Shown: piece after piece, positions 4,301 to 32,553 of the stretch
Numbering within the stretch: the first letter of the stretch is position 1
How the letters are laid out: each line of letters begins with the position of its first letter
DNA from: Gammaproteobacteria bacterium
GTDB lineage: Bacteria > Pseudomonadota > Gammaproteobacteria > Poriferisulfidales > Poriferisulfidaceae
Assembly (NCBI GenBank): GCA_026713705.1
Contig: JAPONY010000017.1
Location: 1 to 41,286 of the forward strand
Length of the DNA: 41,286 nt
Direction: 5' to 3'
The notes under the pieces: model-generated
Database searches by the model: none
The model's input: only the letters and a program-made list of their open reading frames with translations
Told to the model about the DNA's origin: nothing
Program-made: the position numbers and the translations under genes

Positions 4301-4413
4301 ATTCCTTCCCCGCCCATTCCCTTGTCATACGTGTGTTACAAAACTTGGATTTAATCCGCCAGACCAAGGGGTGTTCCCCACCAATCAACTTGAATTCATA
4401 GAGGATTTAACGA

Positions 4414-5491: not shown

Positions 5492-5766
5492 GCGCAAGTG
5501 ACTTATCTCACGTAGGCTACAATTCGGATTTAGGCAGGCTCAATTTATCTGAACCGAGCCCAATAATGCGATTGTTTCTTCCATTAGTATCAGTGACTCA
5601 TTCGATAGAAAAAGCATGTTCAGAATAATGCTAAAGGACACCTAAGTTCTTGCATGGCAGAAGCAATAGTCAGAAATTTAACGCACATGAATTTTTAAGT
5701 GAAAACTGAAGTGAATTCAAAAACAGAGTGCTCGTTCATGACTGTGTTCAGAATTCACTCATTTCT

Positions 5767-6900: not shown

Positions 6901-6933
6901 TGATTGCCAATATGATACCGTTAGATGCCTTGG

Positions 6934-6984
6934 CGATCACTTATGATCCACAAAACATTTTGTGGGTCACTTTTCGATAAAAAT
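6934..6984. repeat. 51-bp direct repeat, copy 1
   Basis: cgatcacttatgatccacaaaacattttgtgggtcacttttcgataaaaat, identical to 7005-7055; contains near-palindrome GATCCACAAAA-ca-TTTTGTGGGTC. Confidence 0.95.
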
Positions 6985-7004
6985 GATCTATTTAGTTAGA
7001 TTGA

Positions 7005-7055
7005 CGATCACTTATGATCCACAAAACATTTTGTGGGTCACTTTTCGATAAAAAT
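7005..7055. repeat. 51-bp direct repeat, copy 2
   Basis: Identical to 6934-6984, 71-bp period, 20-bp spacer. Confidence 0.95.
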
Positions 7056-7070
7056 AGTCTCCTAGGCCAT

Positions 7071-9902
7071 ATGAAGCCCGCTCCTATTCCCAGCATCTTG
7101 AAAGAGGAGGCGGAGTCGGCCTTGGAGGATATCCAGCCTGCTCTTGACGGCGAACTCCTGAACACGAATCGGTCGGCCCTTCTCAACCTGTTTGCCGCCA
7201 GCCCCTTTGCGGCCCGTCTTGCGCGAACCCAACCGGACTTGCTGGAGTCCGCCCTGCGCGACCCAGTCGCCAAGGATCTGGAACCCCCAGACCCCGAAAC
7301 CGCGGAAGACGCAGACTTTGCGCGTTCTTTACGCCGAGCTCGGACGCGGGAGATGCTCCGCATCATGTTTCGGGACATCAACGGGCTCGCGGAACTGCCG
7401 GAAACCCTGCACGATCTGAGCACTTTTGCGGACCGCGCCGTGATGGGCGCCGCTGATTGGCACCGCTCCCGGATGAAGGAGCCCAGCCCAACCGACGAGA
7501 ACGGTGAGCCGGTCCCGTTCGTAGTCCTCGGCATGGGCAAGCTCGGCGGGGCGGAACTCAACTTCTCTTCCGACATTGATCTGATCTTCGCTTACCCGGA
7601 CCCGGCTTCGGACCGTGAGCAGGCGCAATCCTATTTCATCCGGCTGGGACAGAAAATGATCAAGGCATTGGACGAAGTCACCGCCGATGGATTCGTGTTC
7701 CGCGTGGACATGAGGCTGCGCCCGTTCGGCTCCACCGGCAGTCTGGCGCTGCCATTCTCTTCCATGGAGGCCTATTACCAGAACCACGGGCGCGAGTGGG
7801 AGCGCTACGCGCTGATCAAGGCGCGGCCGCTGGGCGAGCCCACCGCCGCTGGTGCGGAACTGACTGACCTGCTCCGACCTTTCATCTTTCGGCGTTCCCT
7901 CGATTTCCGGGTATTGGAAGAGTTGCGGACCATGAAGGCAAAGATGGAACGCCATGCACGCAAGGAAACTCTGGAGGACGATCTCAAGCACGGTCCCGGG
8001 GGAATTCGCGAGGCTGAATTCATTGTGCAAAGTGCACAGTTGATTTTCGGCGGGAGGGAGTCGGTCCTTCAGCAAACTTCGTGGATGCGCGCATTGGACG
8101 CGATGAACCAGTGCGGCAAGCTCACCGACGGCGACGTACAGCTGCTACTCGACGCTTATTCCACCCTGCGCACCATCGAGAACCGCCTGCAGATGATCGA
8201 GGACCAGCAGACGCACACCCTGCCGCAAGATGAACTGGCGAGAGCGCGGATCCAGTTCGCGATGGGTTGCCCGGACTGGTCGGAATTTGCGGATGCACTC
8301 ACCATGCAGCGGGTCAGCCTGCAATTGGAGTTCACCTGCCTGATGCGGGTGGAATTGGAACCAGAACAGGAACACCCTGAAGAACTAAAGACCCTATTGC
8401 ACATGATCGAGACCATCGGGCAGCAGGATGGCGACTTGGTCGGGCTAGAGGAAGTCTTGGGGAAAATGGGACTGGAAGACGGTGCGGAAGAGCCAGCGCG
8501 ACGACTGCACTCCACCATCTCTTCTTCAGCATGGCGCATCCAAAACGCCAGTGGGCGCCACTACGCGTTGGCACTGATTCCGAAAATGATCGAAATCGCC
8601 TGTCGGCAGGCTGATTCAGCCCACGTGCTGAATCTCCTGTTCGATGTGCTGGAAGCCCTTCTGTATCGGCCCAATTGCATGGCCCTGCTGGCCGAGAACC
8701 CCCAAGCGCTGAATCTGCTGGCCGAGCTGGTCCGCCTCAGCCCGTGGGTACAGACCCAAATTTTGCGATCGCCCCACCTCATCGACGAACTGCTGGCACC
8801 AGACACACTGTTTGGAGAACGAACCCCGGAAATCCTGCAAAGAGTCTTGCAACTCGCCCTGCCCGACGACGAGGACGACCTGGAACAGCAGATGAAAGTC
8901 CTTCGCCAATTCCGTCAGTCCCAAACACTGCAAGTCGCCGCTTGCAATCTGATTCACTCAAAATCCCTCTCGGACGTGAGCGACGAATTGACTTGGATTG
9001 CCGAAACCGTCACGACCTGTGCCTGGGACTTGTCGATGCGCCAGCAACTCCAGCGTCACGGCCAACCCTGCTGCGTCGTGGACGGGCAGCGCCGTCCGGC
9101 TCATTGCGCCATTCTGGCCTACGGCAAGTTCGGAGGCCTCGAGATGGGGTTCAATTCCGATCTGGATCTGGTATTCGTCCACGACAGTGATGGCGAAGAA
9201 CAGATGACTGACGGGGAGAAGCCGGTATACAACGAATACTTCTTCACCCGCGTGGTGCAGCGATTCATACATATCATGGAAACCATGACCCCCGACGGCA
9301 CTCTGTACGAGATCGACCCCCGGTTGCGACCCGGTGGGCAATCCGGGCAAACGGTCTGCAGCCTGCATTACTACGAAAAATACCTGGAAGAAAAAGCCTG
9401 GACCTGGGAGCGTCAGGCCCTCGCGCGAGCACGGGCGGTGGCGGGCGATGATGGGGTGCGAGAGGCCTTCGAGGAAGTCCGCGCACGGACTCTGTGCGTA
9501 CCTCGCGAACCCGTTGAACTGCAAAAAGAGTTTGTGGACATGCGCCAGCGAATGCTGGAGGCTCATGTGCCCCAAACCGAGCACTTCCATCTCAAGAATG
9601 ACCCCGGCGGAATCACCGATCTGGAGTTCATGGTGCACTATAATGTGTTGCTTCACGCTGAAAGCCATCCGGAAATCATTGAGCCGACTGCCACAGTGAT
9701 GATTCTGGACCGTCTGGCGCAATGCGGCCTGCTGGACACCGAAACCACTGAATTCCTGCGCGCCTGCTACTTCACCTACCGCGACCGGATACACGTACTC
9801 AGCCTACAGGAGTTGCCACCGCACTCTACACCGGACGAGTTCGCAGACGAACGCATGAAAATTCGGGAACTTTGGGACAAGACCTTCAATCTGGCGACAT
9901 GA
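7071..9902 (+). CDS. glnE: bifunctional glutamine synthetase adenylyltransferase/deadenylyltransferase
   Basis: Two nucleotidyltransferase modules (GMGKLGGAELNFSSDIDLIF and AYGKFGGLEMGFNSDLDLVF). Start MKPAPIPSILKEEAES at 7071 preferred over 7014, which lies inside the repeat. Confidence 0.96.
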   Translation: MKPAPIPSILKEEAESALEDIQPALDGELLNTNRSALLNLFAASPFAARLARTQPDLLESALRDPVAKDLEPPDPETAEDADFARSLRRARTREMLRIMFRDINGLAELPETLHDLSTFADRAVMGAADWHRSRMKEPSPTDENGEPVPFVVLGMGKLGGAELNFSSDIDLIFAYPDPASDREQAQSYFIRLGQKMIKALDEVTADGFVFRVDMRLRPFGSTGSLALPFSSMEAYYQNHGREWERYALIKARPLGEPTAAGAELTDLLRPFIFRRSLDFRVLEELRTMKAKMERHARKETLEDDLKHGPGGIREAEFIVQSAQLIFGGRESVLQQTSWMRALDAMNQCGKLTDGDVQLLLDAYSTLRTIENRLQMIEDQQTHTLPQDELARARIQFAMGCPDWSEFADALTMQRVSLQLEFTCLMRVELEPEQEHPEELKTLLHMIETIGQQDGDLVGLEEVLGKMGLEDGAEEPARRLHSTISSSAWRIQNASGRHYALALIPKMIEIACRQADSAHVLNLLFDVLEALLYRPNCMALLAENPQALNLLAELVRLSPWVQTQILRSPHLIDELLAPDTLFGERTPEILQRVLQLALPDDEDDLEQQMKVLRQFRQSQTLQVAACNLIHSKSLSDVSDELTWIAETVTTCAWDLSMRQQLQRHGQPCCVVDGQRRPAHCAILAYGKFGGLEMGFNSDLDLVFVHDSDGEEQMTDGEKPVYNEYFFTRVVQRFIHIMETMTPDGTLYEIDPRLRPGGQSGQTVCSLHYYEKYLEEKAWTWERQALARARAVAGDDGVREAFEEVRARTLCVPREPVELQKEFVDMRQRMLEAHVPQTEHFHLKNDPGGITDLEFMVHYNVLLHAESHPEIIEPTATVMILDRLAQCGLLDTETTEFLRACYFTYRDRIHVLSLQELPPHSTPDEFADERMKIRELWDKTFNLAT

Positions 9903-16336: not shown

Positions 16337-18430
16337 TCAGTCTTGCAAGCGCGAAAAATCCGCGATTCCCAAAAATAAATCCTGCAGACCCCGCAGAAGG
16401 CGCAAACGATTATGACGTATTTTTTGATCTTCCGCCATTACCAGCACCGTATCGAAGAAAGCTGAAACCGGTTCGGCCAGCCCGGCAAGCGTATCCAGCG
16501 CTCCTTCATGGCGGCGGGCCGCGCAGTTTTTCAACACTTCATCGCGCACTACGTCGAGTTGATCCGCCAGCATGCGTTCCGCTGGCTCCACCAATAGCTC
16601 AGGGTCGACATCTCCATCGCTTTCGTCCGCTTCGCGCAGGATGTTCCGAATCCGCTTGTGCGTTGCGACCAGAACCTGTGCCTGCGGCCGACTCCGGAAA
16701 TCTTCCACCGCCTGCACCCGCCTGAAGGCATCCAGCGGACGCGTCGGCCCAACCGCCAGAACCGCTTCAATGGCATCCTTGGATTGGCCTCGTTCAACCC
16801 CATATCCGCGCATCCGGTCGGCCAGGTAGTCCAGCACCGCCTGAGGAATGCCGTCGGCGCGAAAAGACTTTGGATATCCTTCGATCGCCTGCACCAAGCA
16901 ATCTTCTAAGTCCAAGTCCAATTCGCACTCCACCGTCAAACGCAAGACACCATAGGCGGCACGCCGTACTCCCAGCGGATCCCGAGTCCCAGTGGGTACC
17001 TCGCCTATAGCGAACACACCAGCCAACATGTCCAACCGGTCGGCGAGCGCCAACACCTGGCCCGGTAAAGTTTCCGGAAGAACATCATCCGCATACCGCG
17101 GCCGGTAATGATCCGAAATCGCTTGGCAGACTGCGTCCTGTTCCTTCTCAATGCGGGCGTAATGCGCACCCATGACTCCCTGAAGCTTTGGAAACGACTG
17201 TACGATGTCCGTACCCAAATCCGCTTTGCACAGGCGCGCTGCACGACACACGGCTTCTACATCCGCATCTGCGCTCCGGGCCACGTGTCCGGCCAATTTT
17301 TCAATCCGCTGGACACGCTCAAGCAAAGTACCCAGTTTGTGATGAAAAACCACCCGGCCCAGGTCTTCGACGCGAGATTCGAACGGCCTCAATTGATCCC
17401 GTTCGAGGTAAAAAGCGGCGTCCTGAAGCCGGGAATGGACCACTCGCTCGCATCCCACCCTGATTTCCCCATTGACGTCCGGAAGGTTGGTAACTGCAAG
17501 AAAATGCCGAGATAGAGTGCCGTCTGGCGAGCGGGTGGCGAAATACTGCTGTTGATCCTCCAGCACCGCGCGGACCACTTCTTCCGGTAGACTCAAAAAT
17601 TCCCCATCAAAGCAACCTGCAACCGTCACCGGGAACTCCGCACTGGCGCAAACCTCCTCGAGCAGTACTTCTGACCGAATTGTTGACACTTTGAATTCGG
17701 CCTCGAATTTCTCGATCTGCTGCAGCACTTCCTGCCTGCGTATTGTCGCCTCCACCAAGACGTGGCCTCGCTCCCTCAAGGCGTCCTCATAGGAATCGGC
17801 ATCCGTCAGCTCGATCTGTTTTTCTCCGAGAAAACGGTGCCCCTGCGTAACTGCGCCACATGCCAGATCCATGACTTCTCCCGCAACCGGCTCGCGACCG
17901 TACAGCAACACCACCCACCGGACAGGACGCAGGAAACTTGTCTCCCGCGTGCCCCAACGCATGCGTTTCGCCAGCGGCAATCCTGCCAGGACGCGATTGA
18001 AAATCTCCGGCAACAGTTCTCGGCAATCGCGAGGTTCGATCACTTGTTCGAACGTGAGCCATTCCCCTTTTTCCGACTTCAGGCGATCCTTTCCGTCTTT
18101 CCAACGCTGCATCTGCTTTGCATCGGCCTGACACCCCTTGGCGAAGCCGAGCAATGCGCGAGTCGGCTCGCCCTCCGAATCCAAGGCCGCTGCTACCGAA
18201 GGTCCTTTGCGTGTTTCGGTGGATCCGTCCGTCTGTGCCGCCACTTTTTGAATCTGCAACGCCAAGCGCCTTGATGACGCATGCGCCGTCACGGCCCGGT
18301 CGAACGGAAGAGCCGCGTTTTCCAGTTCTGCGACAACCCCGGCCACCAAGGATTCCTTGAGGGTTTCCAAAGAGCGGGGCGGGAGTTCTTCCGTGCCGAG
18401 TTCAAACAGCACGGTCCGGGTTTCAGTCAT
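16337..18430 (-). CDS. glyS: glycine--tRNA ligase subunit beta
   Basis: [49 protein letters not shown]. Confidence 0.97.
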
Positions 18431-19308
18431 TCCGTGCCCAAGGGGAAATTCAGGGCCTCGCGCGAGGCGTAATAGGCTTCCGCGATCTTCTGTGCCCGGC
18501 TACGGATCCGCAGAATGTACTTCTGGCGTTCGGTGGCGGAAATTGCGTGCCGCGCATCCAGGAGATTGAAGAGATGCGAGCACCCCACCAACTGCTCGTA
18601 CGCCGGCAACGGGAGATCCTGATCGACCAGCCGATCGCATTCCTGTTCCATTTCGTCGAACTGGCGGGATAATTTTTCCGTGTCGGCCTGTTCGAAGTTG
18701 TAAGCCGACTGTTCGACTTCGTTCTGGTGGAACAACTGCCCATAGGTGATCGGGGCCGCCCCCCCATCGTGCCAAATCAAGTCAAAAACACTGTCTTTCC
18801 CTTGCAGGAACATTGCGATCCGTTCGACACCGTAGGTCAACTCGCCGAGCGTCGGACGACATTCCAGTCCTCCCGCCTGCTGGAAATACGTGAATTGGCT
18901 GATTTCCATGCCGTTCAGCTGCACCTCCCAGCCCAGACCCCAAGCTCCCAACGTCGGGGATTCCCAGTCATCCTCCACAAAGCGGACATCGTTTTCGCCA
19001 AGTGCAATACCCAGCTCCTCTAGGGACTTTAAGTACAAATCCTGGATATCATCCGGCGAAGGCTTGAGGGCCACCTGGAATTGATAATAGCGCTGCAGAC
19101 GGTTCGGATTCTCTCCATAGCGTCCATCCGTCGGTCGCCGGCACGGCTGTGCGAACGCACACCGCCATGGCTCCGGGCCGATTGCCCGCAGGAAAGTTTC
19201 CGGATGGAAGGTTGCCGCTCCGATCGGCAGGTCGTGCGCAGGCAAAATCGCGCAACCCTGCGTCGCCCAGTATTCTTCCAGTCGGCGGATGAGGTGCTGA
19301 AGTGTCAT
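18427..19308 (-). CDS. glyQ: glycine--tRNA ligase subunit alpha
   Basis: [79 protein letters not shown]. Confidence 0.98.
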
Positions 19309-22300
19309 GTGCCTGATGGCTCTGTTTCGGAAAATCGGCTGTGGATGTATTTCCGGGTGTCCGTCGGTGAAAGTTTAACAGTCGTCGGCCCATTCCGCAC
19401 AAAAAAATCTCCACTCTCCACAGTTTCAGTTCCTTTCCAGACAAGAAAGACCGGGTTTGGGCTCCTACGGCAACTCACCATGCAGACACTTTTGCCGTCA
19501 ATGGCCTGTATCCGAGAGTCGATGCAGGTTCCAGCAGGTGCGCCGAGGCTGTCCCGAACCACCTGAGAAAGATGACGCATGAATTTATCGTCATTCTCCA
19601 ACTGATCTTTCTCGATGCCCACAATAGAGCCATTATCTGCCACGCCAATGAGGAGGTCGCCGCCTTCGGTATTCAGGAAGGCTGCTATCGTCTTCAGTGC
19701 GGCATGGGTTACCCTTTTATCATCCTTGCGGTCCTCCTTGAGGTTCCAGCGCAATGTGGACTTGAATTCCAAGGTGCCGGTTTCTCCCTGCTCAATCAGT
19801 TCCTCCACGCTGCGTCGACTGCGAAGGTACTGATCGAATAAATAGTTCTTTACCGCTTCCCCGAAACCCTGATCATCGGTAATGCGCTTGTACAGGTCGA
19901 AGTTGGAATCCACGATGTCCTGGATGGCTTCGTCGACCTTGTGGTTAAAGGCTAGGCGCACGTTTTCTCGCGTACTCACGCGCGCAGAAGCATCCAAGGC
20001 TTCATCCCCTTCCAGCCTTTCCATCATCTGCCCAAGAGTGGCGCAATGCTCGGCACCCAGTTCCGTGCCAAAGCGCTCGTTCAACTCGGAAATGATTCTC
20101 GACAATGTTTCCATCTCCTCGGGCAAAAGGTCATACGACTCCTCGTCGAGGATGGGATCCAGGCTCCCCGGCCCTCGTTCCAATTCGATGGCGGCGCTTC
20201 TCGTCTCCCGAATCCGGTACGATTCCATGTCGATGTACTGCTGTATTTCAAGGGGCAGCTCATCTCGATCAATGGGCAACAATGGACGCAGGTGCCGAGC
20301 GAAAACGTAAAGTTTCTCTAGGTCGGGGTCGGCAAAGGTCAACACCTGCGCAAGGAATGCGTAGAACCGTATGTAACGGGTCAGTTCCTTCCGGAATTTG
20401 TCTTGGTCATCCTGTGTAAGATCGCGGAAGCGCTCCACTGAAGGCGCCAATGCGGCGTAAAGTTGGTCCTGGGCGGGGCTCGGCCCAAAGTAAATCCCCG
20501 CATAACTGTCAACATCAGCTGGGGCATAGACCGGATAGTTGCCAAGCCGAGTTTGCACCTGGTACAGCAGGTTGGGGTCGGTTTCTTCCGACAGCAGCGT
20601 TGTTTCGTAGTAGGGATCAAAGGCGGCCTTGATTTCGTCGGTCTTGTTGGCGAAATCGAGCACCAGAGTTTCCTCCTTTTCGGGGTAAACACGGTTTAGC
20701 CTCGAAAGCGTCTGCACGGCATTTACACCGCCGAGCTTCTTGTCGACGTACATCGTATGCAGGAGCGGTTGATCAAACCCGGTCTGGAATTTGTTCGCGA
20801 CAATCAGGAAACGATACTCCGGCGTGTCGAATGTCCCCGCAGTCTGCGTTTCCGACTGTCCGTTCATGCCGGACTCCGTATAGGACTGGCCCCCATCTTC
20901 GACCGTGCCCGAAAAGGCGACCAGGGCTTTGAAGGGATAGCCTTGTTCGGCGAGATGACGGTCTATGGCCAGTTTGTAGCGGACCGCATGCAGGCGTGAA
21001 CGGGTGACGATCATCGCCTTTGCCTGATTTCCGATCTTGTCCTGCACTTGGCTCGTGAAGTGCTCGACCATGATACGTACCTTCATGTTAATCGTATTCG
21101 GATGGCGATCGACATAGGATTTCAGGAGGTGGGCGGCTTTCTTCTTGTCATAGCGCGGGTCGCTCTCGACCGTTTTCCAAAGCTTCCAATAAGCTTCGCA
21201 AGTCGTGTAGCTTGACAAGACATCCAGAATGAAGCCTTCCTCAATGGCTTGACGCATGGTGTAGTCGTGAAACGGCTTGAATGTGCCATCCTCGCTCTTT
21301 GCCCCGAACAGCTCCAGTGTTTTGTTCTTGGGAGTCGCCGTGAAAGCAAAAATCGAAAGGTTGGGTTGCCGGCCACGACTTCGTATTTCGGCCAGAATGG
21401 CGTTTTCCAATTCCTCTTCCGGGGTTTCCGCCTGAGCTTCTTCTTTTTCGGCCTCTTCCAGAGAGGTTGACGAAAGCGTGGCCTTGAGGCTTTTGCTCGA
21501 TTCCCCCGACTGCGAGGAATGGGCTTCGTCGATAATCAGGGCGAAGCGTTTCCCCGGAAGGTCACCGATTTCGGCAGAAATGAACGGGAATTTCTGAAGT
21601 GTGGTGACGATGATCGTCTTGCCGGATTCAAGTGCTTCTTTGAGTTGGCGCGAAGTGGCGTTGATATTTTCCACCACCCCCAGTGTCTGCTCGAACTGCC
21701 GTATGTTTTCCTGAAGTTGGCGATCCAATACACGGCGGTCAGTAATCACGATGATGGAATCAAAGATGCGTCGATCTTCGGAACCATGCAGCGAGGAAAG
21801 TTGGTGGGCCAGCCAGGCGATAGTGAAACTTTTGCCGCTGCCGGCCGAATGCTGGATCAGATAATGTTGCCCGGCTCCCTTTTCACAAGCATCGGATACG
21901 AGACGGCGTACGCAGTCGAGTTGTTGGTAGCGAGGAAAAATCAGGAATGGCTTGCCAGTTGTTCCTTCTTTTCCTTTTTCCTTTTTGATCTGGTGAATGA
22001 ATCGCCGGATCAAGTCCAGCACGCTATCGCGTGCCCAAGTCTCTTGCCAGAGATAGGCAGTGGCGTAACCGGTTTGGGTTGGAGGCACGGGGGGATTCCC
22101 CGCCCCACCGTATTTTCCTTGATTAAAAGGCAGGAAGCGTGTCCTGTTCTTGTGCAAGCGAGTTGTGACAAAGACTAAGTTTGGGTCGACCGCGAAATGC
22201 GCGAGGCATCGGTCACTGGCGAACAGAGGCTCTCGCGGATCACGATCTTTTTTGTATTGCCGAATCGCATCTTTGACAGTCTGGCCAGTCAGCGGATTCT

Positions 22301-22793
22301 TGAGCTCGGCAGTGAAGATTGGAATACCGTTCAAAAACAGCACTAGGTCCAAGCTGTTTTCATTCTTGACACTATATCGCAATTGGCGTACAACCGAGAA
22401 TAGGTTTGCTTTGTAGAGGCGTCGAGTCTCTTTGTTGAGCCCACTTGCCGGGCGAAAATAGGCCAACCGAAACTGGCATCCCATATCCTTTACGCCATGC
22501 CGCAAGACATCAAGCGTGCCACGCCTCTTGATCTCTGTCGCCAAACGTTCCAGAAACCGATCTTCAACCTCCGTGCCATAACGTTGCGAGAGCTTCTCCC
22601 ATTCTTTCGGTTGGGTCGCCTGCAGGAAACCCAAGACATCACCATGCAGGAGGCATGACTCCCGGTCGTAATCCTCCGACCGTCGCTTGTGATAACCGCC
22701 GGGTTGCATCTCCAGGTCATCGCCAGAGTCACCTTGCAGCAAGACGGCCTCAATCGCGTCTTCGAAAGCACGCTCGGAAACAACGGTACTCAT
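19305..22793 (-). CDS. hsdR: type I restriction endonuclease subunit R with C-terminal AlbA_2-like domain
   Basis: Nuclease region ([20 protein letters not shown]), Walker [23 protein letters not shown] box [13 protein letters not shown], motif VI region [22 protein letters not shown]-terminal [17 protein letters not shown]...[23 protein letters not shown] matches the AlbA_2 pattern. Confidence 0.95.
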
Positions 22794-22823
22794 GGTGTTA
22801 TACGGAAAAACCTGCGCCAGTCA

Positions 22824-24224
22824 CTAAGCGTCTTGCGCAGTAGAAGCAGAAGCTTGTCGAACATCTATTTTACCGGTCACGGCCGCAGAGATAAGCGCGG
22901 AACGAAATTCTTTCTTCAGTTTTATAGCTTGGTAAACTTTGGAAATCAGCGTGTCGATTTTTGCTGTCTCACGGTCGAGAAAAGTGGCTATAGAGCATTG
23001 TTCCGTATGGGAAGGCACTGGCACAGACATCTCGTTAAATTTCTCTTTGGTGAAGTGCGCAATCGTAGCTTTGCTATTGGTCGCGTCAAACCATTTTGCT
23101 GATGAAACCGCACTAATGACATATTGAAGGTATTCGACCATGCTTCCCCCATTGGGGGCTTCCCGCACTCTATGCAGAGCGTTTTGAATGATGCAATTAT
23201 TAGGCGCTTTTTTCACTAGCCCACAACGTCCGCCTTCGCCGCCCTCGCATACAACAAGGTCCCCCTCCTGAACACAATATTTTCCGGATTCTCTTTCGCT
23301 AATCCACATAGTGGGCAAAGACGAGGCATCAACCAAAAACCATTGGACATGTCGTGCTTTAAGGTAAGGGACTTCTATATCATCTCTACTGGTTGGGTTT
23401 CTTTGCAACATTTTTCCCAACTGGATCGAAAATTGTTTTTTGGACGCCGTGACCTCCCAATGCGCCGGAATCTCACCCAGCCATTCAATACCGGGATCTT
23501 TCATAGGAACACTGGAGTCGAGGCCCTTGGTGACGGTATGGCTTATGAGAGTAATTCGTTTTTCTTGTAGTAGCTCAATCAACCGCTCTTGTTTTTCAAT
23601 CAGTGTATCGATTTTCGTCGTCTCGCGGTCAAGAAATGCAGCGATGCCATATTGTTCATCCAGATTGGGCAACAGAATTGGAAGTGTCTCGATCTCCGAT
23701 TCATTTACTGCCGGATAACTAACTCCTAATGACCGAGAGACTATCTCTCCGACAAGACTAGCTTCGCGCAGTACATACGATATGAAATCAGGGGAGATTT
23801 CACGTGGCCTAATTGTTGCAAAACCGGTAGAAACGATAGTGTTAGGATCTGGGTTTCGAATAGGCGCGATTGCCCCCAAGTATGTGCGGACAGTCGAGAT
23901 AATCGTATCGCCATCGCGAACAACACGACGAGCCCGGCTTGGGGCGTCTTCAAACGTCATTTCTGTTGATGACACAATACCCCGATACGAATCAACGCCG
24001 CTTATGTCTATGTACGACATAACAAAACTTGGGTCTGTCGTCTCTACCAAAGTTTCGTCATTAATAGTCGCAGAATACTTCAGCCTTTTCACCTCCCAAT
24101 GCGTTGGAATCTCACCCAGCCACTCTACACCGGAATCCTTGTAGGCCGAGTACGGAGCATAGCCCATCCCGCCCGAAAGAGGCTCAATCCCTCTCATTGC
24201 CGCATCAGAAGATTGGTGTACCAT
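22824..24224 (-). CDS. hsdS: type I restriction system specificity subunit S
   Basis: Two half-subunits: KDSGVEWLGEIPTHWEV / KDPGIEWLGEIPAHWEV and FLDRETTKIDTLIEKQERLI / FLDRETAKIDTLISKVYQAI. Confidence 0.95.
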   Translation of the reverse strand: MVHQSSDAAMRGIEPLSGGMGYAPYSAYKDSGVEWLGEIPTHWEVKRLKYSATINDETLVETTDPSFVMSYIDISGVDSYRGIVSSTEMTFEDAPSRARRVVRDGDTIISTVRTYLGAIAPIRNPDPNTIVSTGFATIRPREISPDFISYVLREASLVGEIVSRSLGVSYPAVNESEIETLPILLPNLDEQYGIAAFLDRETTKIDTLIEKQERLIELLQEKRITLISHTVTKGLDSSVPMKDPGIEWLGEIPAHWEVTASKKQFSIQLGKMLQRNPTSRDDIEVPYLKARHVQWFLVDASSLPTMWISERESGKYCVQEGDLVVCEGGEGGRCGLVKKAPNNCIIQNALHRVREAPNGGSMVEYLQYVISAVSSAKWFDATNSKATIAHFTKEKFNEMSVPVPSHTEQCSIATFLDRETAKIDTLISKVYQAIKLKKEFRSALISAAVTGKIDVRQASASTAQDA

Positions 24225-24269
24225 TCAATTTCCCCGACTTAAGGCTACCTGTTTTCCTAAATGCGCCAC

Positions 24270-25193
24270 TCAGTGCAACCAAGGCCCGCCTTCAGGCCAA
24301 CTTCCAGAAAAGTTTCCGCTCCGAGCCAACGCATTCCACGGTTCCGCGAGAAACGACAGAAGAGACTCCCCCACGCCCCCGAAATCTGAAAAAGTGTCTG
24401 ACAACCGGTTCTTGCCGAGGTAATTGCGCCACAGTTCGACGCGGGAAGGTGATGAATAGAATCCAGGAGTTAGGACAAGCGGCAGGTTTTCGGAAATTAT
24501 TGTGCCACGTTGCCCGAAACTTGCCACAATAGCACGCGAGAGAGACTCGCCTTCGAAAGGGAAGTGCTGCGCCAATAGATGAAGATCGTAGAAGTCCTTG
24601 TAGCGGCTGACGGACGCGCCATGCGAGATCATGGCATGAAGTTTCTCGGCCACGACCGATTCCCGAGGATACGTCAGAATTCTTGGGCAGGGGAAATCAA
24701 GCAGCGTGGGATAGTCGGCGTCAACCGGTGCCGGATAGATTACATCTCCAAAGCCGATATCTATGCGTACCAGAATACGTGCACCAGAAATCGCAGCCTG
24801 GAAGCATACCCGGTAACCATCGTATTTGTCGTCCGGTCGAATGATGGAGATGTCGACCTTTTCAGTGTCAAAAGCAATACCGTCGTCGAGGCCCTGGTAC
24901 GAGCAGATCTCGCGGATAATGGAACGCACACCATTTTCCGAGGCACTACCATAGCTGGTAAAGTCAAGATCGCGTGTCGGGCGGCTGACCTCCTCCCCCC
25001 AAAGGACGAGCAGCATGCCCCCTTTCAAAACAAAATGCTCGCGATAATCCAATTCTCCGAGACGATACAGAAATCGCTCCACCGCATATCGCTCCAGAAG
25101 GAGTTGGAAATCCTCTCCGGTTTTCCGTTTCCTGTTCAGCAGCCTTGCGCGCACCGAAGCCGAAACGTTTTGAATCGGCCTGTCTTTCACCAT
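24270..25193 (-). CDS. nucleotidyltransferase AbiEii/AbiGii family toxin
   Basis: LKGGMLLVLWGEEVSRPTRDLDFTSYG (GG...R.T.DLDF signature of AbiEii nucleotidyltransferases); start overlaps the abiEi stop by 7 bp. Confidence 0.93.
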   Translation of the reverse strand: MVKDRPIQNVSASVRARLLNRKRKTGEDFQLLLERYAVERFLYRLGELDYREHFVLKGGMLLVLWGEEVSRPTRDLDFTSYGSASENGVRSIIREICSYQGLDDGIAFDTEKVDISIIRPDDKYDGYRVCFQAAISGARILVRIDIGFGDVIYPAPVDADYPTLLDFPCPRILTYPRESVVAEKLHAMISHGASVSRYKDFYDLHLLAQHFPFEGESLSRAIVASFGQRGTIISENLPLVLTPGFYSSPSRVELWRNYLGKNRLSDTFSDFGGVGESLLSFLAEPWNALARSGNFSGSWPEGGPWLH

Positions 25194-25816
25194 GACAAGG
25201 CATCAAGGTAGGGAGAAACAACTGTTCGCGCTCGACAGATTTCGGCAGCGCGCGCAATCTCATCTATTGTTGCGATCTGACTCCGCATGACGTCGCGAAG
25301 GGCTTCCAGTGCAACATCAAGAGTTCCATGTTTTTTCCGATACCGGAAACAATCAACAACCGTCCGGGCTGGCGAAGTGATGCGAAAGGGCACACCAAGC
25401 GCAGAGCGCTGTTCGACCCCATATGTCGCCATCGCGCCAGAGAAACGGACGACGCGAATTCGGGAAGGCGGGTGTGTCGGCTGGCGAGCCTTATGACCCA
25501 GCGCCAGCCAAACCTCTGAAGGGGATTGAGTACCAATTTCGTGGATGCGCAGCGCCGTATACAGGCAGATAACCGCTCCTGGAACAGCGGCAGAAACCAT
25601 TGCGATGGTTTCAAGTTCTGTAGGTTCGACCTCGTCATCGGAAAACCGATACAGACCATTCCCGAAATTCATTATGATCCCTGCGGACGCCCAGTCTGCA
25701 AGTCTGCGGTGGGCAATGCCGAGCGCCTCGATATCCCTGGCGCGAAAAAAAGCACCCAGGCCCGCGCCCCGCAACGTTGAAAGATCAGCCATGCTAGACA
25801 TGGCCTCATTATACAT
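25187..25816 (-). CDS. type IV toxin-antitoxin AbiEi family antitoxin
   Basis: Winged-helix N-terminus (FFRARDIEALGIAHRRLADWASAGIIMNFGNGLYRF) plus AbiEi C-terminal region (GVPFRITSPARTVVDCFRYRKKHGTLDVALEALRD). True start may be 25801 or 25792. Confidence 0.9.
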   Translation of the reverse strand: MYNEAMSSMADLSTLRGAGLGAFFRARDIEALGIAHRRLADWASAGIIMNFGNGLYRFSDDEVEPTELETIAMVSAAVPGAVICLYTALRIHEIGTQSPSEVWLALGHKARQPTHPPSRIRVVRFSGAMATYGVEQRSALGVPFRITSPARTVVDCFRYRKKHGTLDVALEALRDVMRSQIATIDEIARAAEICRARTVVSPYLDALSW

Positions 25817-25824
25817 TGTTATAG

Positions 25825-25856
25825 AATGTAGGCATCTACATATAAATGCCTACATT
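25825..25856. promoter_or_regulatory. inverted repeat upstream of abiEi, candidate AbiEi operator
   Basis: Perfect 11-bp arms AATGTAGGCAT (25825-25835) and ATGCCTACATT (25846-25856) with 10-nt loop, between hsdM stop and abiEi start. Confidence 0.65.
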
Positions 25857-25861
25857 TACTA

Positions 25862-28015
25862 TCAAATTTCAGAATCCAGCGTTGCCAGCATCTCCATAAT
25901 CTCCCGCTCTGTAGCCCTGATATCACCCTGAATCTCAGCAAGAGACCGAGGCAGGGAAGGGCAGTAAAAATATCGGTTGAAATTGATCTCGTAGCCGACC
26001 ACGCCCACCTTGCCGTCCTTCGAATCACGCTTCGACAAATCAATCCAGGCATCAGGGACATGGGGCACCACTTCGCGGGCAATAAAACTTTCCACACTTG
26101 CCGGAATCCCGTATTCGTCCACAGGATCTTCTCCATCAGGAAGCGGGACACGCTCGGTATCACGCAGATTCGGGTCGGGTTCCGGCTTTCCTTCTGCATT
26201 GCGACATATTTCGGCTGTATCGTCGCGCTCAGAAAGCGCTGAAAGAATCGCTTTTTTCACGGTCGCCGTCAATTTCTGGCCAGTCTCCCCAGTCTTGGCG
26301 TCCAGCACCTCCAGAAACGCTGCGCGATCCTTGTACACCGGTCCGCCCAGCGACTTGAGCAGACCCAGGATATCCTGTTGCCGCTCACGCCCCCGGGCTT
26401 CCTCCTCCTCTTTGGCCTTGCCACGTCTTTTCGATTTCGCCAGATTCTGAAATCCCTTCTGCTCCTCCAGACGGGCAATGCGCTCCGGGCTCGCCTCGAA
26501 ATTGAGCCGCAACGGACGCTCCACCGTAACCTTCCGATAGCCAAATTCCGTGAGCGGGAAGACGCGGCTGACGACCCGCTCCTCGGTCTTTCCGTCAACC
26601 TCGATTTCGCACGTCTCACCATCTCGGAATCTCTTGACTCGACCCAGCACATCCCGCGCCCTTTCGTAAGGGATTTCTCGCCGTTTTTCACCCAGACTCT
26701 TCGGCATCGGTGACCAGAAAGCGGTGGCATCGACAAAAAGCGCCTTGCCCTTGCGTTTTGGCTTCTTACGATTGGTCAACAACCAGATGTAGGTTGCAAT
26801 GCCCGTGTTATAGAAAAGCTGCTCCGGCAGTGCGATCAGCGCTTCCAGCAAGTCGTTCTCCATTACGAACCGGCGAATTTCGCTTTCACCGCTGCCCGCA
26901 TCCCCCGTGAACAGTGGTGAGCCATTCATGATAATCGCAATGCGTGCACCTCCCTCGCTCGGTGCACGAGCCCGCTTGAGCATGTGCAGGAGAAACAGGG
27001 TCTGTCCGTCGCTGATACGAGGCAGGCCCGGACCAAAGCGGCCAGCCTCTCCTCGGTCATGTTCGCTCCGCACTGCATCCTCATCGCTTTTCCACTTCTT
27101 TCCGTAAGGAGGATTGGCGATCAGGTAATCGAAAGTCTTGTCAGCATGGCGGTCATGGGAAAGCGTGCTCCCAAAAGCGACATTGTCGGCATCACGCCCG
27201 CTCGGATCCTTCATGAAAAAATCCGATTTCGAGACCGCCCAAGTCTCCGGATTCACTTCCTGTCCAAACAGATGAATGTCGGCACCGGAGTTGAGTGGCG
27301 GCTTCCCGCCTTTCCGACCGTTTTTTCGCACGCCTTCCGTGATGTGTTCCTTGGCGATCATCAGCAAACCACCGGAACCGCAGCATGGGTCATAGATGGT
27401 GTGAATAGCGCCTTTTCGGGCAATTTCCTTCTCATCCCCAGCCAGCATGAGATCAACCATCAGATGGACGACATCTCGTGGCGTGAAGTGTTCTCCTGGA
27501 TTTTCATCCAGCGCCTCGTTAAACCGGCGAATCAGTTCTTCGAAAATCGTCCCCATAGTCGGATTGTCCACCCGGTCGGGGTGCAACTCGACTTTCCCAA
27601 ACTGTTCCAATACCTGGAACAGTAGTCCCGCCTCATCCAGCTTGCTGATCGTGTTGTCGAAGTCGAAACGCTCGATGACCTCGCGCATATTCGCGCTGAA
27701 GCCCGCAATATAGTTTCGGAGGTTCGCGGCAACTTGCTGCGCATCGCCCAGCATCAAATCAAAATCGTATTGGGAGGTGTTGTAGAACGCGAAGCCGGAG
27801 GCCCTGCGCAACTGTTTATCCGGATTCCGAAGCCCTTTCTGCCTCAACTCCGCATTCCGCTTCAAGACTTTTCTCTTGGTCGGAGCTAGGACACAGTCGA
27901 GCCGACGCAGGACGGTCAGCGGCAGGATGACATCCTGGTATTTCCCGCGCTTGAAACTGTCACGGATGAGGTCGGCCACACCCCAGAGAAAATTGACAAT
28001 CTCGCTATGGTTCAT
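25862..28015 (-). CDS. hsdM: type I restriction-modification system DNA methyltransferase (N-6 adenine) subunit M
   Basis: SAM motif IYDPCCGSGGLLM, catalytic motif NPPYGKKW, N-terminal HsdM_N (IVNFLWGVADLIRDSFKRGKYQDVILPLTVLRRLDCVL). Confidence 0.96.
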   Translation of the reverse strand: MNHSEIVNFLWGVADLIRDSFKRGKYQDVILPLTVLRRLDCVLAPTKRKVLKRNAELRQKGLRNPDKQLRRASGFAFYNTSQYDFDLMLGDAQQVAANLRNYIAGFSANMREVIERFDFDNTISKLDEAGLLFQVLEQFGKVELHPDRVDNPTMGTIFEELIRRFNEALDENPGEHFTPRDVVHLMVDLMLAGDEKEIARKGAIHTIYDPCCGSGGLLMIAKEHITEGVRKNGRKGGKPPLNSGADIHLFGQEVNPETWAVSKSDFFMKDPSGRDADNVAFGSTLSHDRHADKTFDYLIANPPYGKKWKSDEDAVRSEHDRGEAGRFGPGLPRISDGQTLFLLHMLKRARAPSEGGARIAIIMNGSPLFTGDAGSGESEIRRFVMENDLLEALIALPEQLFYNTGIATYIWLLTNRKKPKRKGKALFVDATAFWSPMPKSLGEKRREIPYERARDVLGRVKRFRDGETCEIEVDGKTEERVVSRVFPLTEFGYRKVTVERPLRLNFEASPERIARLEEQKGFQNLAKSKRRGKAKEEEEARGRERQQDILGLLKSLGGPVYKDRAAFLEVLDAKTGETGQKLTATVKKAILSALSERDDTAEICRNAEGKPEPDPNLRDTERVPLPDGEDPVDEYGIPASVESFIAREVVPHVPDAWIDLSKRDSKDGKVGVVGYEINFNRYFYCPSLPRSLAEIQGDIRATEREIMEMLATLDSEI

Positions 28016-28106
28016 AGCATTTTATAAAGATGGATGTTAGTGTGTCGGCAAATAAGCACCGTACATGGCGACGTAGATTCACACATCTAAAGGTGCGAAA
28101 AAGATC

Positions 28107-28640
28107 TCAAAGGGGCACATTCCCGCGCGGGTGGAGTTTCATCATTTCTTTACAGGCTTTCGTAAGATTGCTCCAAAAAAGACTCTCTATGAACGCTATT
28201 GCTGTACTAGAAGAATCAAAACTGGATTGGGCTGGCACACAATTTTGTACTATCTCATCTTCTAGACTATCAAGCGTATCTCTGATGTTCTCATAAGTTT
28301 CATCTTTGAAGATTGTTAGTAACAAGAAACGCCCTAGAACAAGATTTTTGTCTCTACCAAATTCCCTTGCAAGATTAATCATTCTTTCTAAGGTTCGATT
28401 CAATGGGGCTCCTCGGTCCATTTGGTGTAGATGATCAACATACTTATTAATCAAGTCAGCCAGTGGTGACCAGCAGATAGGCATAATGACTGTTCTATAC
28501 CAAAACATGTCCACAATCGACTGTTGCCGGTCCATGCGCCTTTGATACAAATCCCACAAAAATTTTATGAAATTCAATCCTACCCCTAAAACTGCTGCCC
28601 ATAACAGGAAATCTGGCGGCCGAGGGATATGAAAATCCAT
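28107..28640 (-). CDS. hypothetical membrane-anchored protein (177 aa)
   Basis: Single predicted N-terminal TM helix FLLWAAVLGVGLNFIKFLW followed by a charged soluble domain; begins 10 nt after the STAS-like gene stop. Confidence 0.75.
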   Translation of the reverse strand: MDFHIPRPPDFLLWAAVLGVGLNFIKFLWDLYQRRMDRQQSIVDMFWYRTVIMPICWSPLADLINKYVDHLHQMDRGAPLNRTLERMINLAREFGRDKNLVLGRFLLLTIFKDETYENIRDTLDSLEDEIVQNCVPAQSSFDSSSTAIAFIESLFWSNLTKACKEMMKLHPRGNVPL

Positions 28641-28650
28641 AATGAAGTCT

Positions 28651-28992
28651 TTATTTCTTGTGGTTACTGATTAACGCGCGGTGTTCCTGCAATGCACGAG
28701 CAATGCAGGTCTCAAAAGTATCTAAGAACACTTTAGGAACCTGAAAATCATATCTGTTAAGAAAAGCCTCGCGACTACCAGCTTGGAGGATACTTTTGCC
28801 AAATAATGCTAGGTAAAATGAACTTGTCACAGAATATGTAGACTCCGGGATGCGCACTATGACTTTGGCTTGCGCTTTATCAACTTTATCCAACTTAAAT
28901 TCTTTGCGCGCAAGAGCACCCTTGGAGCGCCCAGAATAAACAGGCCCGCCCAATTTTTTGAAATCGACTACTACCTCGGAACTAGCGCTCAT
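28651..28992 (-). CDS. STAS-like (DUF4325-like) domain protein
   Basis: 113 aa; SGRSKGALARKEF and TYSVTSSFYLALFGKSI resemble DUF4325 STAS-like proteins. Overlaps the upstream GHKL ATPase gene by 11 bp. Confidence 0.65.
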   Translation of the reverse strand: MSASSEVVVDFKKLGGPVYSGRSKGALARKEFKLDKVDKAQAKVIVRIPESTYSVTSSFYLALFGKSILQAGSREAFLNRYDFQVPKVFLDTFETCIARALQEHRALISNHKK

Positions 28993-30307
28993 CTCTCCTG
29001 CCTACGCCCTCGGTAGCTCCTCGTGGAAGTGGAAATCTAATGGAAACAATAGTGCCGGGAAATTCTACCCCGTCGAGGCATTTTACATAAGTCTGGTCAG
29101 GAGGAAGCTCAAGTGTATTTTCAGAGTTAAAGGCAATTATCTGGCGGTCATTCGAATCAGGCAACATCTCATACCGACCATCAAACAGTATGTATGTCTT
29201 TCCGGAAATTATCACCATCTTTGCACGCCGTCCGTCTTGGGGTCGCTTTTCTCCGTAAACTTCTTGAAAGAATTGAATTAGGTCAACAGTTCCACTGCCA
29301 CGATTATCGCTTTGGTTTTCATTCTTTGAACTAATACACTCCTGTAACGCGGCAACTGTATACAAATTATCGCGCTCCCAACCCTGTCGAAAAAAGCCTT
29401 TCTTCTGATGAATCTCTATGAAGGGATCCACAACTCGTCGCGTAAAATGATCCTCAGGAAGTTCAGAGAATGTATCAGCGTAACTTTTCCCAAAATTAAA
29501 TATGGATATCTCGCATACTCGTTCAGGCGTACTAAGATCTAAGTATCCTGCAAGAACCCAATCTTGGGTCTCGCTGTGTTCTATCGCATTGTCGAGCACC
29601 TCACCTGCATATTCGCCCAATTTTTGGCGTCCATATTCGGTCAATTGGCGACCACTTGTTTCAAGGCATTCATTAAAATAATCAATAAGTCGTTGCGCCG
29701 CGCGCTCGATAGGACTTACTTCCGACGCGCGAAGTAGAGCCCTATAACTCAAACATCGTAGAATTTTTAGGCTCTTCTCTTCTTCATGACGCAAGTAAAA
29801 TGGAGTTAATTCTAGGTTCTTAATGATGCCTACTGCCCTAATAAAGCGGTTTGCCAAAATACTGGCAGGAAATTTTCCGCTTAGTTGGAGCCCACCCTTT
29901 GCCCATCGACGTATTCGCTGAAAATCAAGTGCCACAATGTCAAGAATTTCTTCTGCTGCCAGGTCAAAATTGACCAAATCAGAATGATCAAAGTAAATTT
30001 CTCTAGGCGGTCGCCGACGGCTTGAAAACGCCACAAGTTGGTAGATTGTTCTCAGAGCATTTTCCGTATTGTCGACAATTGAGAAAGTACTTGGAATCTT
30101 TATTGTTTCTGATTTTTCCTTGCCTGGATGCACACCTTTAGGGATATGTCTTTGAAGAATTTTAAGCGTTTGTGGAAGATAAAGTAGCAATCCGTCCCTG
30201 TGTTTTGCTAACGCTTTGCGCCGCATTCGTTCAACAGCAATATTTTTTAGGCGACGTTTCTCACGCTTTTCAGAAAGAAATTTCTGGGTTTCTAGCCGAT
30301 TTTTCAT
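28982..30307 (-). CDS. GHKL-type ATP-binding protein (HATPase_c-like)
   Basis: 441 aa; N-box GEYAGEVLDNAIEHS and lid/G2-like SDNRGSGTVDLIQF. No kinase DHp or receiver domain recognised. Confidence 0.75.
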   Translation of the reverse strand: MKNRLETQKFLSEKREKRRLKNIAVERMRRKALAKHRDGLLLYLPQTLKILQRHIPKGVHPGKEKSETIKIPSTFSIVDNTENALRTIYQLVAFSSRRRPPREIYFDHSDLVNFDLAAEEILDIVALDFQRIRRWAKGGLQLSGKFPASILANRFIRAVGIIKNLELTPFYLRHEEEKSLKILRCLSYRALLRASEVSPIERAAQRLIDYFNECLETSGRQLTEYGRQKLGEYAGEVLDNAIEHSETQDWVLAGYLDLSTPERVCEISIFNFGKSYADTFSELPEDHFTRRVVDPFIEIHQKKGFFRQGWERDNLYTVAALQECISSKNENQSDNRGSGTVDLIQFFQEVYGEKRPQDGRRAKMVIISGKTYILFDGRYEMLPDSNDRQIIAFNSENTLELPPDQTYVKCLDGVEFPGTIVSIRFPLPRGATEGVGRRDER

Positions 30308-30345
30308 CTAGGACACAAAATCACTAATTGATAGTTATTTACGGC

Positions 30346-30351
30346 ATTATA
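30346..30351 (-). promoter_or_regulatory. candidate -10 box for the GHKL operon
   Basis: Exact TATAAT on the minus strand about 39 bp upstream of the ATG at 30307; the -35 is not convincing. Confidence 0.45.
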
Positions 30352-30487
30352 TCTTTTCCACGAGAGGTAGGCTGCGTATGGAAAAATCGATCAAACCTAG
30401 ACAAAACCAGCTTTTCAAAATTGCATATAAACTCGTGACCAGTGCTATAGTTCAAAGCACAAAATATCTCCGTTTTTTACATAAAGA

Positions 30488-31174
30488 GTGGAATCAGCAT
30501 CTATTTTCACGGGGTATGTCTCGTGGTTTCTCGGCGTGTGCGTATCTACGCTTCTTGCTTTAGTTGGAAAGTATTGGATTGATCTTCTATTAGACAGAAA
30601 AGCACGTCGAATCGATTGCATGTACTACGGAATTAATGATGGGTTCCATTTATCAGTCACATTGTGTAACACTTCGAACAAACCTATAAGGATAAGTGCT
30701 CCTGGCCTTGTTCATAGAAAAGAACATGGTTTGGACCGATGGATGACCTTATGGGCAGTGGGAGAAGTAGGGCGCATAGGCATGTTCGCGGTTAGTTGTG
30801 ACTCTGACCAAATAGACCGAAAAATCACATTAGATGGTACGCCTAAGACCGAGGAACAAGTATGTGGCCAGGAAATCAAGGTGGATAGTCTTGTTTCATG
30901 GAATATCCGTTTCAAAACCGTACAGGCTACAGAACTATTTATGAAGGATTGCGATAGCCTTGGGTTTATAGATAGACGGGGGGCTTTTTACAGCGTGAGA
31001 ACAAAGCCCATCATGAAAGAAATTAAATATCTCTTGGAAAACCCGCTTTTGCCTAAATCACCTGGCAGCCATAGCCCCCAAAAAACCGTATCCCTTTCCT
31101 TTTCTCAGATCGGAAAAATAATAGCAACAATAGAACGACTACCGAATAAAAGGCCCCCAAGAGAGAAGAAATAA
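30488..31174 (+). CDS. hypothetical membrane-anchored protein (228 aa)
   Basis: GTG start; N-terminal hydrophobic helix YVSWFLGVCVSTLLALVGKYWIDLLL followed by a soluble domain; divergent from the GHKL gene. Confidence 0.65.
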   Translation: MESASIFTGYVSWFLGVCVSTLLALVGKYWIDLLLDRKARRIDCMYYGINDGFHLSVTLCNTSNKPIRISAPGLVHRKEHGLDRWMTLWAVGEVGRIGMFAVSCDSDQIDRKITLDGTPKTEEQVCGQEIKVDSLVSWNIRFKTVQATELFMKDCDSLGFIDRRGAFYSVRTKPIMKEIKYLLENPLLPKSPGSHSPQKTVSLSFSQIGKIIATIERLPNKRPPREKK

Positions 31175-31362
31175 AAAATAAATAAATCGAGGGCAGGAAA
31201 ATGACAAGAAGCACTACAGACTGAAAGATATACAGGTTTTTAGCAGCCTGTACGTGCCCGACTGTTCATCAGAGAAATTGGTAATTGTCCTTTGGTCAGA
31301 GTGGGACCGATTTTGAAAGAATTCCCCATACATCCAAACCATACTTTTATGTCATCAAAATT

Positions 31363-32553
31363 CTAGTTTCTCGCCACATCAAAAATCTTGCGGTGTTCCG
31401 CAAGAATGTGCCGGTCGCTCAAGCTTGCAATGTAATCGGCGATCACCCGGGCCTGTCCTGCCTCGCTACGGACCGCCTTTTTCTCATGGGCCCGTTGGTG
31501 CAATTCCGTCGGCAACAACTGCGGGCGGTCCATGAACACGCGGAACAACTCCCGAATCACACGGACAGCCTGACCGGTTGCCTGTGCCAACTGGTGGTGA
31601 TGGTAGTACTTCTCCTGCAGCAATCGGGTCACCGACGAAAGTTCGGCACGCAATTCAGCACTGAATCCAGCCAGTCGCTCGGTACAGGCACGGACGGCCT
31701 GTGGCGAGTCCGGCTGCACCTGTTCGATCCGCTTTTCAGTAGCAAGGATCAGATCCTCCATCATGGCTGTAATCATGCGCCGGTTGGCCTCATGCAGCAA
31801 TGCATGCCGCGACAACTTCGGCGAGGCTTTTTCCGCCTCGTCATAGGCGCGGGAAAACAGCGCCAAGTTCCGCACTTCTTCAAGGTCCAGAAACCCCAGC
31901 CGCAGACCATCGTCCAGATCATGGTTGGTATAAGCAATCTGGTCGGCAAAGTCCACCAACTGCGCCTCCAGGGTCGGCGAGCCGCCTTTGAGGAAACGTT
32001 CCCCCAGCGGCCCCAGAGTTTTAGCAATTTCCTTCGGGCAGCGCTTCAGCACTCCCTCACGTGTCTCAAAGCTCAGGTTAAGACCGCGAAAATTGGCGTA
32101 TTTATGCTCCAGCTTGTCGATCACGCGCAATGATTGCAGGTTGTGTTCGAATCCACCGTACTCTTTCATGCAGTCGTCCAGCGCATCCTGTCCCGCATGC
32201 CCGAATGGCGTGTGACCCAGATCGTGAGCCAGCGCGATCGATTCGGACAGGTCTTCGTTGAGACGCAAGGCGCGCGACAGCGTGCGCGACAGCTTGGCCA
32301 CTTCGATGCTGTGCGTCAGTCGGGTGCGAAAAGATCCATCCGCATGATTCACCATGACCTGGGTCTTGTACTCCAAGCTTCGGAAAGCGGCGGCGTGAAT
32401 GATCCGGTCGCAATCACGCTGGTACAGCGTTCTGAATTTGTCCGGAGGCTCCGAATGCTGCCGCCCGAGGGAATTGAATTCGCTGGCCGCATAAGGGGCA
32501 AACCCGGCCCGATCCGGCCCACCACCCCGCGCTTCCAGCAAATCGACTGCCAC
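31363..32553 (-). CDS. dgt: deoxyguanosinetriphosphate triphosphohydrolase-like protein
   Basis: HD-domain motifs RTRLTHSIEVAKLSRTL and ALAHDLGHTPFGHAGQDAL; follows aroB directly. Confidence 0.94.
   Translation of the reverse strand: MAVDLLEARGGGPDRAGFAPYAASEFNSLGRQHSEPPDKFRTLYQRDCDRIIHAAAFRSLEYKTQVMVNHADGSFRTRLTHSIEVAKLSRTLSRALRLNEDLSESIALAHDLGHTPFGHAGQDALDDCMKEYGGFEHNLQSLRVIDKLEHKYANFRGLNLSFETREGVLKRCPKEIAKTLGPLGERFLKGGSPTLEAQLVDFADQIAYTNHDLDDGLRLGFLDLEEVRNLALFSRAYDEAEKASPKLSRHALLHEANRRMITAMMEDLILATEKRIEQVQPDSPQAVRACTERLAGFSAELRAELSSVTRLLQEKYYHHHQLAQATGQAVRVIRELFRVFMDRPQLLPTELHQRAHEKKAVRSEAGQARVIADYIASLSDRHILAEHRKIFDVARN

Follow-up and report, generated by a model that had tools for sequence, protein, structure and literature searches.

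A mobile three-gene cassette of a STAS-GHKL kinase-like protein, a STAS-like partner and a membrane protein: probably a membrane-output form of GHKL-kinase/STAS immune switches

Introduction

What might a GHKL ATPase, a small STAS-like protein and a membrane-anchored protein do when they are encoded side by side next to a type I restriction-modification (R-M) locus? The question is raised by three minus-strand genes, named here K, S and M, in a 41,286-nucleotide stretch of gammaproteobacterial DNA (contig JAPONY010000017.1, called the window below). They had been predicted to form an undescribed switch attached to the R-M locus. The word “undescribed” holds for the trio itself, which was found neither in PADLOC-DB 2.0.0 nor in the literature searched. 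It does not hold for the architecture, as a kinase, a STAS protein and an effector were published together in June 2026 under the name VapKSC (PMC13373217).

VapKSC consists of VapK (STAS-GHKL), the STAS antitoxin VapS, which carries phospho-Ser48, and the PIN toxin VapC. It protects E. coli against phage Bas42, and the exchange of S48 for E in VapS abolishes toxin inhibition (PMC13373217). The same study describes CapK (HTH-STAS-GHKL), which is activated by ssDNA, and CapS (STAS-wHTH); CapKS pairs adjoin R-M operons in 88 of 443 (Chambers et al., EMBO J, June 2026, PMC13373217). VapKSC operons were also recovered independently in the present work (loci L057, L069 and L083, the last on a Deinococcus plasmid), with VapS recognised through PDB 9z7o. 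In this analysis, K, S and M are a real, conserved and mobile three-gene system. By analogy with the published systems, they probably represent a new membrane-output form of GHKL-kinase/STAS immune switches.

Locus and gene calls

K (28,982–30,307, minus strand, 441 aa) is described as a STAS-GHKL protein kinase-like protein on the basis of the ORF call, invariant motifs, AlphaFold2, Foldseek and hhalign. S (28,651–28,992, minus strand, 113 aa) is a predicted single-domain STAS-like protein of the DUF4325 family, which was assigned through invariant residues and PF14213 matches in its homologues. M (28,107–28,640, minus strand, 177 aa) appears from hydropathy and AlphaFold2 to be a single-pass membrane protein and is the proposed effector. 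The K and S genes share an 11-bp overlap, and M starts 10 nt after the end of S; the positions and spacing of the three frames are all as originally predicted. The probability that a 441-codon open frame would arise by chance at the local base composition is about 2e-12, and homologues occur in the same order elsewhere. For these reasons, K, S and M are real genes. As single sequences, the three window proteins gave nothing above the cut-off against Pfam, PADLOC and NCBIfam, and their sequence profiles found nothing useful in the PDB.

The trio lies in a 3.35-kb insert (28,019–31,369) with a GC content of 0.42, compared with 0.58–0.60 for chromosomal genes and 0.47–0.55 for the R-M genes. Four same-genus genomes lack the insert at their hsdM-dgt or glyQ-dgt junction. 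This absence indicates recent horizontal acquisition, which had been suspected from the AT-richness and location of the trio. The insert also contains a divergent ORF (30,488–31,174, plus strand, 228 aa) with an N-terminal TM, which came in with the trio. This ORF belongs to no family and has no relatives in any fetched locus or plasmid. It was ruled out as a fourth member of the cassette because no relative stands beside the other trios. An AT-rich gap of 180 bp (30,308–30,487) separates it from K, and the promoter of the minus-strand trio must lie there; no convincing sigma-70 match was found on the minus strand of this gap.

Distribution of the cassette

A tblastn search of plasmids yielded seven positive records (Pantoea, Providencia, Vibrio, Salinivibrio, Spirosoma). 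Five distinct plasmid loci were opened, and in each a gene of ~110 aa and one of 186–280 aa come directly after the K homologue, all of them labelled “hypothetical”. The class-wide search was positive in 2 of 291 genomes and added one locus. A six-sequence profile, run once over 85,488 species genomes, contributed a further 36 loci, which belong to Bacteroidota, to Beta- and Gammaproteobacteria and, as single MAGs, to other groups.

HMM searches of all ORFs placed S after K in 41/41 loci in which the contig continues. M follows S in 40 junctions, 36 of which were recognised by profile and four by position together with an N-terminal hydrophobic stretch. The junctions between the genes are mostly overlaps of 4–20 nt or gaps of less than 25 nt. 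The pairwise distances of the three proteins are correlated (K-S r 0.90, K-M r 0.83, S-M r 0.78), and each of these values was reached by 0 of 2000 permutations. No fourth conserved gene adjoins the trio in any locus. K, S and M form an obligate, co-diversifying cassette, the order of which is fixed from Proteobacteria to Bacteroidota; the expectation that the three genes travel together is borne out in all of the about 40 loci with a continuing contig.

Some variants were seen in the course of this survey. The Kluyvera copy (L027, 11,515–12,100) combines a frameshifted M with open K and S frames, possibly a sign that K and S are tolerated without M. A GHKL + DUF4325 pair with phage-like neighbours and no evident third gene (L072, 1444–2681, minus strand) possibly represents another output or a stand-alone form. 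The genome of the window also has a stand-alone DUF4325 gene (L065, contig C50) near what appear by eye to be HEPN and nucleotidyltransferase toxin-antitoxin genes. A gene of the same type is present in the same-genus genome G191, there without the HEPN/nucleotidyltransferase pair.

Features of the three proteins

The AlphaFold2 model of K, with 35 homologues in the alignment, has a mean pLDDT of 87.5 and predicts a long basic N-terminal helix (residues 2–42), a STAS-like alpha/beta domain (residues about 66–187) and a GHKL domain (residues about 199–430). The net charge has a median of +12 over the first 45 aa, compared with about 0 per 45 aa elsewhere in the protein. Foldseek matched the model to SpoIIAB (1tid_A and 1l0o_A, prob 0.97, TMt 0.62–0.64) and to STAS domains (3mgl, 3oir and 4dgf, prob 0.92–0.98). 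These two expected halves were the only coherent high-probability matches, none of them with E < 0.001. The N-box residues E236, N240 and H244 are invariant in 37/37 homologues, and a test for the GHKL superfamily found the Bergerat fold with the N-box E/N present. Moreover, hhalign aligned K with VapK in register over the STAS domain and the N-box (E 2.1e-5), and an FPGT stretch near the C-terminus (F416-P-G418 in K) is common to both proteins. On the strength of the predicted structure, K is a STAS-GHKL protein of the SpoIIAB type. A GHKL ATPase paired with a STAS-like protein, with folds of the SpoIIAB/SpoIIAA type, was what had been proposed from the start. The model of K, its alignment with VapK and the DUF4325 matches of the S family all agree with that proposal.

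In K, the stretch DNRGSGTVDL had been read as a GHKL motif; it does contain the glycine-rich lid box (R336-G-x-G-T340), but its D-N is not conserved. The Asp of the G1 box (DxGxG) is absent from the whole family, in which the motif reads N-x-G-x-S/T (N271-x-G273 in the window), with Asn in 34/37 and Ser in 3/37 homologues. Because of this replacement, catalysis by K is not assured. F75 is conserved in 35/37 homologues, and no residue equivalent to the ssDNA-contacting aromatic (F54 of VapK, W68 of CapK) could be placed in K.

R22, G25 and S58 of S are conserved without exception (41/41 homologues). PF14213 (DUF4325, “STAS-like”) matches 21/41 of these homologues, with a best value of 4e-7, and does not match window S alone at E up to 1. 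S is a member of the DUF4325/STAS-like family, an assignment drawn from sequence at the level of the family. S58 sits at the S-S-F position of the STAS helix, and the adjoining S57 is replaced by Pro in copies from Bacteroidota. The hhalign similarity between S and VapS is weak (E 0.015, prob 3%). In an F-anchored alignment, which builds on this weak profile similarity, the invariant S58 lies one residue after S48 of VapS, and S57 lies at the S48 position. By analogy with VapS, S58 (or S57 beside it) is proposed as the phospho-acceptor of S.

A single N-terminal TM helix had been predicted for M, and hydropathy now places it at about residues 11–29; such a helix is also predicted in 33/34 homologues. 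More basic residues are found C-terminal of the TM in nearly all homologues, a charge pattern from which the topology of M is probably N-out/C-in. The extracytoplasmic segment ranges from a few to about 130 residues among the homologues and is almost absent from window M, and the longer homologues also have a signal-like N-terminus. A conserved stretch, S-x-x-D-x-F-W-x-R-x-V-I-x-P, comes directly after the TM. In the AlphaFold2 model (mean pLDDT 88.5), the long TM helix continues into a helical bundle. No consistent Pfam family and no useful PDB sequence match were found for M, a Foldseek search of the model against the PDB returned chance helical matches only, and hhalign against VapC gave nothing. 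In Pfam, PDB sequence and fold comparisons, M was not similar to any known pore or effector, and its predicted cytosolic all-helical domain has no significant match that would give it a known relative.

Restriction-modification neighbours and mobile context

The glyQ-dgt junction of the window holds the R-M genes, the trio and the divergent 228-aa ORF. The same junction is empty in two same-genus genomes, G293 (94–96% identical DNA) and G191. Two others, G291 and G292, have a type I R-M locus at the junction without the trio, with hsdM adjoining dgt; hsdR and hsdM are present at the site in both, and G292 also has hsdS and abiE. Since the same-genus sites are either empty (two) or occupied by R-M genes only (two), the trio arrived separately, into an existing R-M site. 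Most homologous trios, furthermore, have no R-M neighbour. The original prediction had tied the trio to the type I R-M locus, and a functional tie of this kind fails on both counts: the R-M link is incidental, and the trio is not part of the R-M operon. The trio as a component of a type I R-M operon was ruled out by the R-M genes that G291 and G292 carry without it.

The junction (18,427–32,553) behaves as an integration hotspot of defence genes, being empty in two genomes, filled with R-M in two and with R-M and the trio here. Nested between hsdS and hsdM is an AbiEi/AbiEii pair of the type IV toxin-antitoxin family (24,270–25,816, minus strand), which is conserved in G292. The C-terminal part of HsdR (19,305–22,793, minus strand) has, as read by eye, an apparent AlbA_2/Schlafen-like extension (FKSTLRW...). 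Elsewhere in the window, positions 2500–4322 and 5493–7071, with a 574-aa protein and a Fic-like protein, are also absent from the close relative G293.

Matches to the trio were found in 32 of 5,426 E. coli genomes (about 0.6% of the complete genomes). The order of genes is portal (gpQ), K, S, M and replication endonuclease (gpA) in 4/4 of the loci opened, one of which also has a ParM-type partition module. In Enterobacter (L023) and Yersinia (L024), too, the trio is flanked by a Phage_portal and a Phage_GPA gene. The gpQ-gpA interval of P2 is a hotspot of anti-phage systems (Rousset et al. 2022, PMC9122126). Other trios have defence-type neighbours, namely BREX BrxL/PglZ (L018), pAgo (L041), type I HsdR (L035) and PLD-helicase (L019). 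Such neighbours were counted without a control set, and a PADLOC tally of 143 neighbouring proteins serves as illustration. Some trios are next to integrases, others are on plasmids, and several adjoin housekeeping genes. A search of phage records and viral contigs gave no homologues, though the cassette is present in P2-like prophages. The cassette is carried by mobile elements, with the anti-phage hotspot of P2 prophages among its sites, and it is this published slot in E. coli, Enterobacter and Yersinia that gives substance to the defence context suspected earlier.

Proposed mechanism and alternatives

We lean, with moderate confidence, towards reading K-S-M as a phospho-switch of the VapKSC type that is self-contained, moves horizontally and has a membrane protein as its output. 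In view of the partner pairing and the P2 anti-phage slot, the trio is likely to be a new relative, acting on the membrane, of the recently described suicide system triggered by DNA damage. Our best inference on its function is the phospho-release of a membrane effector, with M as the putative effector and the trio as a putative defence system. At rest, S would bind the cytosolic bundle of M and keep M harmless. The basic N-terminal helix, together with the STAS-GHKL groove, would then detect nucleic acid derived from the phage or from damage, and K would become active. Active K would phosphorylate S at the invariant serine, so that S would release M, and free M would damage or depolarise the inner membrane and halt the infected cell before phage release. 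The trigger, the phosphorylation of S, the binding of S to M and the action of M are all modelled on VapKSC. As a PP2C phosphatase is not encoded, the switch would run in one direction, as in VapKSC. The replacement of the G1 Asp by Asn in K and the off-by-one serine in S count against this model, as does the result that family, sequence and fold comparisons found no recognised toxic feature in M.

The leading alternative makes M a sensor or membrane anchor. M would respond to stress on the envelope or to an adsorbing phage and relay the signal via its cytosolic bundle to K and S, the target of which would lie elsewhere in the cell. In favour of this role, the extracytoplasmic segment of M is variable, as it often is in sensors, no toxic domain was recognised in M, and K could attach to the membrane through its basic helix. 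A cassette that moves between phyla would, however, need an output of its own, and no locus has a fourth conserved gene that could serve as one. The extracytoplasmic segment is moreover almost absent from window M, and the third gene of VapKSC is a toxin, which makes the sensor reading unlikely. It is quite improbable that K and S exert transcriptional control in the manner of CapKS, regulating their neighbours (the R-M operon or M) upon DNA damage. The trio lies directly upstream of hsdM, and the frequent position of CapKS pairs beside R-M operons (PMC13373217) would fit, but S, a single domain of 113 aa, lacks the wHTH, which is the DNA-binding part that defines CapS. There is also no conserved downstream operon, and two same-genus genomes have the R-M genes without the trio. 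Housekeeping partner switching, with K as an anti-sigma factor, S as its antagonist, M as a membrane input and the sigma factor encoded elsewhere, draws on SpoIIAB, to which the kinase domain is structurally closest. We regard it as highly improbable for a trio that is absent from four near-complete same-genus genomes, occurs in 2/291 genomes of the class, travels on plasmids and prophages across phyla and includes no PP2C phosphatase for reset.

The E. coli copies might also be a system already known under another name. 3HP (Rst_3HP) comprises three hypothetical genes without Pfam domains, lies in the P2 hotspot and protects against P1 (PMC9122126), and the E. coli trio shares the hotspot and the number of genes. 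PADLOC reports 3HP in an analysis that used PADLOC-DB v2.0.0 (PMC10855318), which points to its presence in that library. Searched against PADLOC-DB 2.0.0 at E up to 1, neither the E. coli trio nor four other K proteins produced a match beyond a single weak one of M to an unrelated candidate model, and no model matched the window trio. In addition, M has an obvious TM, which sits badly with the description of 3HP as lacking any clear domain. Since no model of the library matches the E. coli trio, identity with 3HP is improbable, the two being set apart through models and descriptions.

If the phospho-switch model is true, the immune-switch concept of a GHKL kinase and its STAS substrate, dating from June 2026, reaches membrane killing and gains an effector family without known relatives. 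It would also explain three “hypothetical protein” genes at a defence hotspot of E. coli P2 prophages. A bolder generalisation, which we hold only tentatively, is a class of immune phospho-switches in which a serine kinase with a nucleic-acid-sensing helix unlocks hitherto unknown single-pass helical-bundle effectors by phosphorylating a STAS “safety catch”. The GHKL/STAS module would then be a general chassis for different killing devices (RNase, repressor, membrane pore). The E. coli copies, for example the SE11 proteins WP_000717775, WP_000781372 and WP_012565106, make the trio directly testable in a standard laboratory host.

Comparison with known systems

The partner switches SpoIIAB/SpoIIAA and RsbW/RsbV resemble the trio in combining a GHKL kinase fold, with SpoIIAB as the top structural match, and a STAS-type partner. 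The trio differs from them in having neither a sigma factor nor a PP2C phosphatase, in the STAS domain that K itself contains, and in its sporadic, mobile distribution. 3HP is similar in its three genes of undefined domain content at the P2 gpQ-gpA hotspot, where it is protective against P1; it differs in that the trio is unmatched by the PADLOC-DB 2.0.0 models, a comparison made via models and descriptions.

CapKS is closer to the trio. Both have a STAS-GHKL kinase with a STAS partner and an association with defence loci, and both kinases have an extra N-terminal segment of a nucleic-acid-binding type, an HTH in CapK and a basic helix in K. CapS, in contrast to the 113-aa single domain of S, has a wHTH. 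The trio controls no downstream immune operon, and M is part of the cassette.

VapKSC is also a three-gene operon with the same order, in which a STAS-GHKL kinase comes first, a small STAS protein with a conserved Ser/Thr follows and the third gene is the output, the role proposed for M; its loci, too, are near defence genes. K differs from VapK in its basic N-terminal helix (+12, compared with -1 to -3 in VapK), in being about 150 aa longer and in having Asn for the G1 Asp. The similarity between S and VapS is remote, and the invariant Ser is shifted by one. VapC is a PIN nuclease, whereas M is a predicted single-pass TM protein with a helical domain. Because K aligns with VapK and M is unrelated to VapC, the trio appears to have the kinase-STAS chassis in common with VapKSC and to carry a different output.
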